Below, piece by piece: positions 1,232 to 4,812 of a stretch of DNA of 39,807 bases (position 1 is its first letter; every line of letters starts with the position of its first letter). Below the pieces are notes generated by a model that worked only from the letters and a program-made list of their open reading frames with translations, was not told where the DNA came from and ran no database searches. Made by a program: the position numbers and the translations under genes. Origin of the DNA: Planctomycetota bacterium (lineage in GTDB: Bacteria; Planctomycetota; UBA1135; GCA-002686595); assembly GCA_021730845.1 (NCBI GenBank), contig JAKFYL010000181.1, forward strand, positions 1 through 39,807, written 5' to 3'.

Positions 1232-1260
1232 TTGACCGTGGCGAACGGGGCTGCTAGGTT
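1232..1260 (+). promoter_or_regulatory. Promoter of the cobalamin-riboswitch transcript
   Basis: TTGACC at 1232-1237 and TAGGTT at 1255-1260 are separated by 17 bases, close to the sigma-70 consensus. GC immediately precedes the -10 box, as at other promoters here. Transcription would start near 1267, just before the riboswitch aptamer. Confidence 0.7.
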
Positions 1261-1267
1261 CCATGCA

Positions 1268-1485
1268 TTGACAACTTACCGCGACGCCAGCTGAGGGAAG
1301 CAGGTGATGAATCCTGCGCGGTCCCGCCACTGTAAGTCGATTGCTTCAAAGTCCAAGGCACTTGGCGGTGCGCCACGAGCGCGCTGCGGGCCACGGGCAA
1401 AGCGTTGGTCCCTCGCAGGGACTTGGCGCGGCCTGGAAGGTCTGACTGTTTGAAGTTGCCACGACGAGCCAGGATACCCGCTTGC
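1268..1485 (+). promoter_or_regulatory. Cobalamin (B12) riboswitch aptamer
   Basis: Hallmarks of the cobalamin aptamer appear in order. AGGGAAGCAGGTG (about 1293-1306) is followed by the GCGG-CCCGCCACTGT core (CCCGCCACTGT at 1323-1333), then a long variable region (about 1334-1460), then the B12-box segment GAGCCAGGATACC at 1466-1478. These match the conserved pattern of the family, which binds adenosylcobalamin or related corrinoids and usually represses downstream genes. The exact 5' and 3' limits are approximate. The gene controlled is at 1655, about 170 bases downstream. A small hairpin (GGACCT at 1500-1505 with AGGTCC at 1513-1518) follows the aptamer. Confidence 0.9.
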
Positions 1486-1589
1486 GCCGCACTTCCTCCG
1501 GACCTCGAACGAAGGTCCCAGAAGAGCGCGCTCATGGCGTGCTTGGCTACTAGCCGCACGCGAATCGATCGCTGGCGCGACTAAGTCTG

Positions 1590-1654
1590 GGAAATTCCTT
1601 CGTCCGCGGTCCGGCTAGCCCCGAACGCCGACGCAGATCGGCCAAGGAATTTCC
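1590..1654 (+). promoter_or_regulatory. Shine-Dalgarno sequestering inverted repeat (riboswitch expression platform)
   Basis: GGAAATTCCTT at 1590-1600 is the exact reverse complement of AAGGAATTTCC at 1644-1654, which ends one base before the ATG at 1655 and contains the AAGGA ribosome binding site. Pairing would give an 11-bp helix closing a 43-base loop and hide the whole initiation region. No U-rich intrinsic terminator is visible in the leader, so control of translation is the simplest model. How the aptamer chooses between the two states is not evident from sequence alone. Confidence 0.75.
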
Positions 1655-2953
1655 ATGCAAAGCGTGTTCTCTCTTGCGCACCGTGCGCGTTCCGTAGTTT
1701 GTGTGTTGGGACTGATGTCGGTCCCGTTGTTCGCCCAGGCACCCGTCGTGGCTCCTGGATGGACGGCCCCATCGATCTCCAGCCCTGCTCCGTTCTCGGC
1801 CTTTTGCACACTGCAGAATGGGGACCTGGTCACCTTCGACGGCCAATTCGTCGACCGCTGGAGCGGCGATGGCAGCGTGTATCTGGGCTCGCTCGGTTCC
1901 CTTCCCAATGCCACCTTCGCGGGCTTCGCCTTGCCTACGCCGGATGGCAGCAGCGTCGTCCTGGGCGAAACCGTGTTGAGTGGAGCAGGCAACTTGCACC
2001 GCGTGAACCTTGCCAGCGCGAGCATCCAGCACGTGGCTTCCTTGCCGCTGGTGTACGACGCCGAATTCGCCCCCAGTGGCAAGCTGCTGGTGAGCGCCAG
2101 CACCACAGGACTGGACAACGATCTGCTTTCCGTCGACGTATTCACGGGAGTCGTCACGCAAGTCGGGCAGGTCAGCGGCCCGTCGGGCCCCCTAGCCGTT
2201 TCGCCCAGCGGCGATTTGTACTACGCCACGCAGGTGTACAGCTTCCCGCCGCCCGCTGGGTCGACGAGCGTCGTGACTTGGAGCGCCGCTCAGGTCGCCA
2301 ACGGGGGTCTGAACGATGCGAATGCGACGCTGGTGGCGGCCAGCTTCGATGGCGGAAGCGCTCTGGCGTTCGACCCGATCGGGGGCGGCGTGTACTTGGG
2401 CGAAACCAACTTCGGTCTCAACGTGAATCGGATCCGAGCCGTTTCGCCGCTCAGCTCCCCCATCGTGGTCGACTCGACGCAGTACGTCAACCAATTCGAG
2501 ATTCTGATCGGATCCTACCCGGCGAGCTTGGCCGCCTACCAGCCGGGCAGCGGTATCAACTTGCGTTACAGCCGCGGAGGTTTCGACATCGACCGTCTCA
2601 CGCCGGCGCGCCCGGCGTTGACGGTATCGGGACCGGGGACCATGGGCATGGGACAGGTCAACTTCCAGATCACGGGCGGCCCGCCCGCGGGAGTATTTCA
2701 GGTAACCGCGTGCCCGCAGTCGGCGCTGCTGCCGACGGAAGTTCCGATCCAGTTGCCGACGTTCTTGCTGCATACGACGTTCAACTTGAGCGTTACTCGG
2801 CGCGTGGCCACGGGGTTCGCGCTCGATGCCAATGGGCAAGGTACGTTCTCGATCTTCAATCCCGGCACACTGCAAGGCCAGTGGGCCTTTCAGTTCTTCG
2901 CAGGCGAAGTGTTCCCGGATTTCCTCGGTTCTAGCAACGTGGTTTCGTTTTGA
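1655..2953 (+). CDS. Exported beta-propeller-like protein under B12 riboswitch control
   Basis: The product has 432 residues and starts at the ATG at 1655, 6 bases after AAGGA. The N-terminus is a Sec signal peptide: Arg at 10 and 12, a hydrophobic core (VVCVLGLMSVPLF) and likely cleavage after AQA near residue 30. There is no lipobox. Residues about 45-320 contain repeated beta-strand blocks with phrases such as GDLVTFDGQFVDRWSGDGSV and GGVYLGETNFGLNVNRI, resembling YncE/NHL/SMP-30-like propellers. The last 110 residues form a separate beta-rich domain. I do not recognise a named family. The cobalamin riboswitch upstream implies production when B12 is scarce. By analogy with BtuG, a surface propeller that binds B12 in Bacteroides, corrinoid capture is a possible role, but this is inference. 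The gene at 2962 follows within 9 bases. Confidence 0.85.
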   Translation: MQSVFSLAHRARSVVCVLGLMSVPLFAQAPVVAPGWTAPSISSPAPFSAFCTLQNGDLVTFDGQFVDRWSGDGSVYLGSLGSLPNATFAGFALPTPDGSSVVLGETVLSGAGNLHRVNLASASIQHVASLPLVYDAEFAPSGKLLVSASTTGLDNDLLSVDVFTGVVTQVGQVSGPSGPLAVSPSGDLYYATQVYSFPPPAGSTSVVTWSAAQVANGGLNDANATLVAASFDGGSALAFDPIGGGVYLGETNFGLNVNRIRAVSPLSSPIVVDSTQYVNQFEILIGSYPASLAAYQPGSGINLRYSRGGFDIDRLTPARPALTVSGPGTMGMGQVNFQITGGPPAGVFQVTACPQSALLPTEVPIQLPTFLLHTTFNLSVTRRVATGFALDANGQGTFSIFNPGTLQGQWAFQFFAGEVFPDFLGSSNVVSF

Positions 2954-2961
2954 ACCAGCAA

Positions 2962-4686
2962 ATGAGCGTTCGACTGCCGCGGGCTAATGCCCGCGGTGCC
3001 ATGATCCTGGCGGCGCTGGTTGCACCGGCGCCGCCGCTGGCGGCCCAACTGGGCCCCCTGCAGACGCTTCCCGCCGGCGCCGCGCTCGAGCGCCATGGCT
3101 CGAGCCTTGCCAATGTGGGCGACTTGGACCTGGACGGCATCGCTGACGTCGCCATAGGCGCGCCGCTTTCGAGCCAACACGCAGTCGAAGCAGGACTCGT
3201 GCGTGTCTACTCCGGCGTTACCGGCGCGCTGCGCTTCACGATTTACGGCGCTTCGTCGCTGGACCACTTTGGCTGGGCGGTGTCAGCGGCCGGAGATTGG
3301 AACCAAGACCAAGTCCCGGACATCGCCGTGGGCGCTCCCGATGCGGACTACATGGGGCCCGATTCCGGAGCCGCCTATGTGTATTCGGGTGCCGACGCAA
3401 GCCTGATTCGTGTCTTGCCCGGACTTGCCGGCGGCGGCCGGCTGGGTACGAGCTTGGCTCGCTCGGGCGATTTCAACGGCGACGGCGTGGAGGATCTCCT
3501 GGTGGGCGCACCGGACGCGTCCGGCACCCATGCCAAGCAAGGCTGGGCAGGGATTTTTTCCGGGTCCGACGGCCAAGTCGTGTGGAGTGTTGCCGGAGCC
3601 GCGACGGGTGACCGACTCGGAACCGCGGTTGCCGCGGGTTTCGATTTCAATTCGGACGGAGTGAACGACTGGCTGATCGGAGCGGATCAAGCAGGACTGA
3701 GTTCGGGGCTCGTGCAGTTGTACTCGGGCGTCGGCGCAGGCGTGCTCCTGTTTCAGTGGGAAGGCGCGCAACCTCTGTCGCGCTTTGGAGCGAGCCTAGC
3801 CGTGGTTGGAAACTTCGATGGCGCCGGAGCCATCGATTGCGCCGTGGGCGCGCCGCTCGATAGCAGCCTCGCCCCCAGCGCCGGAGCGGCCGTCGTGCTG
3901 GATCTTGGAACCAAGGCGCAACTGGCGCAGTGGCGCGGCGTGCAGACTGGCGAGCAATTCGGCCACGCGGTCGCTGCCGCCGGGGACGTGGACCAAGATG
4001 GACTGGACGACGTCGCGGTCGGTGCGCCCAGCGTGGATGTTTTCGGATCGACCTCGGGGAGTGTGCGCGTATTCCGCGGTGGGGCGAACACGTTGCTTGC
4101 GCGGCACGTGGGCAGCGGCGGCGGCGAGCGCTTCGGCTCGGCGCTGGTGTGCGCCGGCGACGCTAGCGGCGACTCCGTGCCCGACCTTTGGATCGGCGCG
4201 CCCAAGTCCGATCACTCTTTCCCCGACGGCGGATCGGTGCACTTGATGTCCGGTGCGGATTCTTCGCCCTTTGTGTACTGCGCAAGCAAACCCAGTGCCC
4301 AAGGATGTACGCCCATGATCGGTTGGCTCGGCAGTCCCACGCTTTCGGGCGCGGATGATTTCTTCGTGACGGCCGGCAACGTGCCCAATGAGCAAGTGGG
4401 CCTTGCGTTCCACGGACCAGCGTCCCAAGGGACGCCATTTCTGGGTGGCAAATTGTGCGTCGCCGCCCCGATCGAGCGCGAAGCCCTGGCGTTTTCGGGA
4501 GGCAATTCGGGCCAGCCGGATTGCTCGGGCGCATTTGCGACCCACCTCTCCCATGCGGCCATGACCGGCAACGCGTGGAGCCTGGGGCAGCACGTGTACG
4601 CGCAATACTGGCTGCGCGATCCGCTGCACCCCGATGGAACGGGCGTTGGACTTTCGAACGCGCTCGCGTTCGTGGTTGGGCCCTAA
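2962..4686 (+). CDS. Exported FG-GAP (integrin-alpha type) seven-repeat propeller protein
   Basis: The product has 574 residues from the ATG at 2962. A TTG at 2950 overlapping the previous stop is also possible. No Shine-Dalgarno is visible, so translation may be coupled to the gene ending at 2953. A signal peptide is present (hydrophobic MILAALVAPAPPLAAQ). Seven FG-GAP repeats follow, each with a calcium-loop-like D-x-D/N-x-D-G segment and a closing VGAP/IGAP: GDLDLDGIADVAIGAP, GDWNQDQVPDIAVGAP, GDFNGDGVEDLLVGAP, FDFNSDGVNDWLIGAD, GNFDGAGAIDCAVGAP, GDVDQDGLDDVAVGAP and GDASGDSVPDLWIGAP. Residues about 437-574 form a Cys-containing C-terminal domain shared with the protein at 30163-31821. Position makes it the second gene of the B12-controlled unit. 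The ligand is unknown. Confidence 0.87.
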   Translation: MSVRLPRANARGAMILAALVAPAPPLAAQLGPLQTLPAGAALERHGSSLANVGDLDLDGIADVAIGAPLSSQHAVEAGLVRVYSGVTGALRFTIYGASSLDHFGWAVSAAGDWNQDQVPDIAVGAPDADYMGPDSGAAYVYSGADASLIRVLPGLAGGGRLGTSLARSGDFNGDGVEDLLVGAPDASGTHAKQGWAGIFSGSDGQVVWSVAGAATGDRLGTAVAAGFDFNSDGVNDWLIGADQAGLSSGLVQLYSGVGAGVLLFQWEGAQPLSRFGASLAVVGNFDGAGAIDCAVGAPLDSSLAPSAGAAVVLDLGTKAQLAQWRGVQTGEQFGHAVAAAGDVDQDGLDDVAVGAPSVDVFGSTSGSVRVFRGGANTLLARHVGSGGGERFGSALVCAGDASGDSVPDLWIGAPKSDHSFPDGGSVHLMSGADSSPFVYCASKPSAQGCTPMIGWLGSPTLSGADDFFVTAGNVPNEQVGLAFHGPASQGTPFLGGKLCVAAPIEREALAFSGGNSGQPDCSGAFATHLSHAAMTGNAWSLGQHVYAQYWLRDPLHPDGTGVGLSNALAFVVGP

Positions 4687-4726: not shown

Positions 4727-4812
4727 TGGTGCCGGGGAGGGGACTTGAACCCCTACTCCCTTGCGGGAAATGGATTTTGAATCCATCGCGGATGCCATTT
4801 CGCCACCCCGGC
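4727..4812 (-). tRNA. tRNA-Leu (anticodon CAA)
   Basis: This 86-base class II tRNA has acceptor strands GCCGGGG and CCCCGGC, discriminator A and an encoded CCA. The anticodon stem ATGGA/TCCAT closes the loop TTCAAAA, giving anticodon CAA for UUG codons. The extra arm is long (TCCCGCAAGGGAG), as expected for leucine. It lies between the FG-GAP gene and dapB, on the opposite strand to the former. Confidence 0.95.

Follow-up and report, generated by a model that had tools for sequence, protein, structure and literature searches.

The closest described counterpart of the locus analysed here is BtuG, a B12-binding β-propeller that is controlled by a riboswitch, encoded beside btuB and found in B12-scavenging organisms (PMC6143338). 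BtuG (DUF5074, PF16819; PDB 3DSM) is a seven-bladed surface lipoprotein and has been reported from Bacteroidetes only (PMC6143338). Riboswitch-controlled loci can also encode BtuH and BtuJ, accessory exported surface proteins that bind B12 (PMC8941943, PMC13398666), and their family, DUF4465, occurs in the planctomycete Mucisphaera as well (PMC13398666). A literature search, covering few subscription papers, returned no description of B12 acquisition from outside by planctomycetes, nor of a system such as that set out below. The window, the whole 39,807-nucleotide stretch of planctomycete DNA that was analysed, resembles the BtuG arrangement in that an exported β-propeller is encoded in a unit preceded by a cobalamin riboswitch (Table 1).

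Table 1. Features of the window and of other contigs (L, locus handle) referred to in the text.
Feature	Position	Strand	Remarks
Cobalamin riboswitch aptamer (RF00174)	1271-1499	+	51.9 bits, gathering 31.5; model 1-189 complete
Candidate anti-ribosome-binding-site segment, GGAAATTCCTT	1590-1600	+	exact 11-nt complement of 1644-1654
Ribosome-binding-site region, AAGGAATTTCC	1644-1654	+	maskable by 1590-1600 through the same 11-nt complementarity
Exported protein, 432 aa	1655-2953	+	signal peptide ~1-28, predicted six-bladed propeller 49-325, C-terminal β-sandwich 333-426
C-terminal β-sandwich of the 432-aa protein	2651-2950		
Exported FG-GAP-repeat protein	2962-4686	+	PF01839, E 1e-30
tRNA gene (anticodon CAA by eye)	4730-4812	-	downstream of the riboswitch-propeller unit
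BtuF/BtuC/BtuD-like operon of the same genome	L136:6811-9820		on another contig
Companion exported family A3, ~345 aa	L033:6315-7346 and homologues	+	no Pfam match; alignment A3
Third exported propeller-like kind	L074:458-1705; L032:3332-4405; L088:3830-5266	-; +; +	weak WD40/NHL/PQQ signals
tRNA-adjacent TonB-dependent receptor genes	L213:3612-5804; L214:5945-8317; L215:7389-9431		

The first-pass annotation described a clear promoter and a cobalamin aptamer in the leader, and the two halves of this claim fared differently. The aptamer belongs to RF00174, its covariance-model score lying well above the gathering threshold across the whole element, and it is the sole match found in its genome (4.4 Mb, 88% complete). 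Both genes upstream lie, by eye, on the minus strand, placing the riboswitch in a divergent intergenic region. A scan yielded no consensus promoter, and the TTGACA motif at 1268-1273 runs into the aptamer match at its 5′ end. Between the end of the aptamer and the start of the propeller gene lie 155 nt, and here an 11-nt segment is the exact complement of the ribosome-binding-site region, a pairing reached by none of 300 shuffles, which suggests translational control through a local candidate expression platform. Among relatives a ribosome-binding-site complement was found at p≤0.05 at just 4 of 36 loci, and such masking was rejected as a family-wide platform.

The protein encoded directly behind this leader carries a signal peptide of the signal-peptidase-I type, as read from its sequence, with no lipobox cysteine, so that the earlier description of an exported, propeller-like protein lacking a lipobox is upheld. 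Neither Pfam nor NCBIfam gave a family match, and its homologues matched entries there only weakly and sporadically; the protein is the founder here of a family that has no annotation in either database. A search with the single protein returned three named records, each titled 'Planctomycetota bacterium'. An AlphaFold2 model built with 37 homologues (pLDDT 93.0, pTM 0.88) predicts six four-stranded blades, a count made on the order of strands assigned by DSSP, followed by an eight-stranded C-terminal sandwich. The D-A loops, which form one face of the predicted propeller, are more conserved (0.519) than the propeller overall (0.445), and 9 of 228 circular shifts reach the loop value; the strongest conserved motif, GPSGP, lies in one of these loops and NYDA in another. 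Such a face is compatible with ligand binding in the predicted fold, and leaves the ligand unnamed.

Searched alone, the C-terminal domain weakly matches many further exported proteins encoded in these genomes, close to the ends of sequences that are otherwise unrelated, and it may serve the lineage for sorting or anchoring. In some distant homologues the match is limited to the propeller part, and one of these (in genome G148) ends in a PEP-CTERM-like tail. Because this tail takes the place of the sandwich, the latter probably serves for anchoring or sorting; the propeller would then form the conserved core, with a tail that looks like a sorting module open to exchange.

The likeness to BtuG drawn by the first-pass annotation does not extend to the predicted number of blades. 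Unlike the seven-bladed BtuG, the planctomycete propeller has six blades by prediction (model pLDDT 93), and the best 50 Foldseek matches listed include propellers of many functions with no BtuG among them. Unlike the BtuG lipoprotein, the window protein has no cysteine at the signal cleavage region, the alignment shows none there either, and no btuB was recognised next to the propeller gene in the loci examined. PF16819 matched none of the 37 propeller homologues and nothing in the window's own genome, with three weak matches in 60 relatives, and the propeller profile retrieved no BtuG entry from the PDB at E≤1, nor did it reveal a sequence relation to BtuG or to any known B12 binder. Membership of the BtuG family is therefore rejected on sequence family, blade number, lipobox and btuB linkage. 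BtuH and BtuJ are jelly-roll folds, unlike the predicted propeller, and DUF4465 matched neither the propeller homologues nor the companion family A3 described below.

The same riboswitch-propeller pair, looked for in other planctomycete genomes, is common. In 61 related genomes we found 86 RF00174 matches, distributed over 57 genomes, and 49 single-domain copies of the propeller, 43 of which lie on the same strand as an RF00174 element and 56-320 nt (median 118) behind it. An element of this type stands ahead of the propeller gene in 43 of the 61 genomes, the propeller being in each the first same-strand gene behind the switch, and the unit is present in 31 of the 37 genomes of the window's own family. 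The other six copies have no riboswitch directly in front. In G049 and G055 the copy is the second gene of a tandem pair that stands behind a single riboswitch, in G028 and G015 it starts where the contig ends, and in G038 it comes after the companion gene at a contig start, leaving a divergent copy (G007:C68) as the clear counter-example. As the surroundings of the own-family genomes are partly syntenic through shared ancestry, these genomes weigh less than their number. An even sample of 294 genomes drawn from the phylum contains the propeller family in 32. Twenty loci lie outside the order, and with two that begin at contig starts left out (G285:C610 and G148) 18 are assessable; 15 of them, spread over seven other families, have the riboswitch directly in front. 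In a further locus (G285:C481) the riboswitch precedes the companion gene and then the propeller, and the remaining two (G112 and G255:C3) have no riboswitch in front. In these other families the neighbouring genes differ and the riboswitch-propeller pair stays. Separately, two long frames of 683 and 634 residues (L171 in G016 and L172 in G027) each hold two separated halves of the propeller profile and lack a riboswitch; by sequence they are best read as divergent or enlarged paralogues.

The second gene of the window, for an exported FG-GAP protein as first annotated, is probably co-transcribed with the propeller gene, and the proposal that the two form one B12-controlled unit is plausible here by spacing alone; it does not carry over to relatives, since G012 is the only genome, among those whose loci were retrieved, to have an FG-GAP homologue close to the propeller, and there an inverted gene separates the two. 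The FG-GAP gene was accordingly rejected as a conserved partner. As had been noted, no BtuB, BtuF, Cob, MetE or Nrd gene is recognised adjacent to the unit in the window. Like the window, several relatives (L092, L144-L146, L167, L168) have a tRNA gene at a comparable position downstream, which indicates that gene order is conserved within the family.

Co-occurrence of the propeller with B12-related genes in other genomes, on which the first-pass annotation had made its case depend, is found. In G023 the riboswitch, the propeller, CobT (PF02277, E 8e-87) and CobS (PF02654, E 5e-44) follow in a row, and in G195 the propeller gene lies behind a BtuF-like gene (PF01497) at a distance of 63 nt, an order repeated in G236. 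Further riboswitches in the genome set precede BtuF-like or BtuC-like genes, and those of G043 and G047 precede, by eye, cobO-type and then transporter genes. The genomes thus hold BtuFCD importer and CobT/CobS genes, several of them behind the same kind of riboswitch or adjoining the propeller; BtuFCD serves a cytoplasmic-membrane step and CobT/CobS cytoplasmic ones, and the propeller would act earlier than either.

Riboswitches of the set also precede other exported proteins. The companion family A3 is present in 12 of the 61 genomes and in 11 of these follows a riboswitch, while the twelfth member is at the start of a contig, ahead of a propeller. The family immediately precedes the propeller in G285, G038 and G148 and is its neighbour in G026 and G049, and in the set searched it occurs only with riboswitches or with a propeller of the window type. 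Its structure model is poor (pLDDT 50) and was not relied on. A3 weakly matches the LIC_13355 family lipoprotein of Leptospira (NF033170, E 1e-9 to 2e-16), scoring 37.8 and 60.1 bits where the cut-off is 120, which points to a distant relation at most; the paper characterising LIC_13355 makes no mention of B12 (PMC11891782). A third, propeller-like kind of exported protein stands behind riboswitches in G010, G020 and G039, where the first propeller was not found full-length.

CbiC, used as a single marker of corrin-ring synthesis and scored in draft genomes, is absent from all 61 related genomes and was found in 7 of 14 control genomes, so planctomycetes with the riboswitch-propeller pair appear, from their gene content, unable to make B12 themselves. 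The window's own genome nonetheless encodes 13 B12-binding matches, including radical-SAM and corrinoid-protein types, and a fragment with a match to the activation domain of methionine synthase. On another contig it carries a BtuFCD-like operon with no detectable riboswitch ahead of it, whose NCBIfam scores fall below the equivalog cut-offs, so that we infer its substrate. For the outer-membrane step, a single TonB plug domain was found in the same genome, at the end of a contig, and none of the 61 genomes lacks such a domain. Eight sampled TonB receptor loci have no riboswitch, and the receptors were rejected as riboswitch-linked partners. In the loci examined, no TonB receptor or BtuB-type gene could be recognised as a neighbour of the propeller; the large divergent upstream genes that were tested as BtuB candidates encode cytochrome c554/TPR, HEAT-repeat, DAHP-synthase or unannotated proteins. 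In G017, G011 and G035 the sole TonB-dependent receptor gene found adjoins a tRNA gene, and this receptor could be the missing outer-membrane partner.

We consider the most likely function of the unit, with good though incomplete confidence, to be riboswitch-repressed extracytoplasmic capture of corrinoids for uptake, BtuG-like in role but not by a BtuG. The reading gains strong, if indirect, support from the pairing conserved across families, the cobT/cobS and btuF-like links, the absence of CbiC and the genome's own B12-binding proteins, and the propeller is probably an undescribed B12-capture protein unrelated to BtuG by sequence. When cellular corrinoid is low, the riboswitch would permit the exported propeller to be made, and when it is ample, corrinoid would bind the leader RNA and turn production off. 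The signal peptide would secrete the protein, which would be kept outside the cytoplasm, at the cell surface or in the periplasm, with the sandwich as its probable anchoring or sorting module. One conserved face of the propeller may then capture corrinoids, and the cargo would cross the outer membrane, possibly via one of the few TonB-dependent receptors, to reach a BtuFCD-type importer. Of the corrinoid capture system of a different type foreseen by the first-pass annotation, the capture idea is strengthened by the cross-family pairing, the B12-gene links and the lack of CbiC, but the FG-GAP protein is not a conserved part of it.

Other readings have to be set against corrinoid capture. The propeller may be B12-regulated and yet not bind corrinoids, serving instead some other need that arises when B12 is short, for example another cofactor or a metal, adhesion to neighbours that produce B12, or enzymatic activity outside the cell. 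Propellers bind many ligands, the best 50 Foldseek matches listed are generic ones, and cobalamin riboswitches also control B12-independent substitutes; we nevertheless think this unlikely, though it is the strongest of the alternatives, as the informative neighbouring genes belong to B12 salvage or transport and A3 is confined, in the set searched, to riboswitches and the propeller.

Corrinoids might also be the ligand but be met in the periplasm rather than captured outside, with the propeller partnering BtuF, remodelling corrinoids or storing them. A signal peptide lacking a lipobox and the gene order with btuF-like and cobT-cobS genes would suit such a role, whereas the PEP-CTERM-like tail in G148, and a C-terminal domain weakly common to many exported proteins, point to display or sorting over a soluble periplasmic protein, and we regard this alternative as improbable. 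That the pairing is an inherited neighbourhood without function, the riboswitch serving another gene or being a relic, would fit the partly conserved gene order within the family; it is very hard to reconcile with a pair that persists in other families despite different neighbours, and with the 43 genomes in which no other same-strand gene comes between the switch and the propeller.

The riboswitch-propeller pairing thus recurs across many planctomycetes and is more than one odd locus. Whether it extends to a widespread planctomycete corrinoid scavenging system, in which a six-bladed propeller and a LIC_13355-like family, each under cobalamin riboswitches, arose apart from BtuG and BtuH/BtuJ and are not encoded with BtuB, is in our judgement evenly balanced. 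If corrinoid capture is correct, another phylum would have brought a propeller into corrinoid capture under riboswitch control independently of BtuG, two unannotated protein families would gain a directly testable function, and there would be a molecular handle on competition for B12 among free-living bacteria that lack corrin synthesis.
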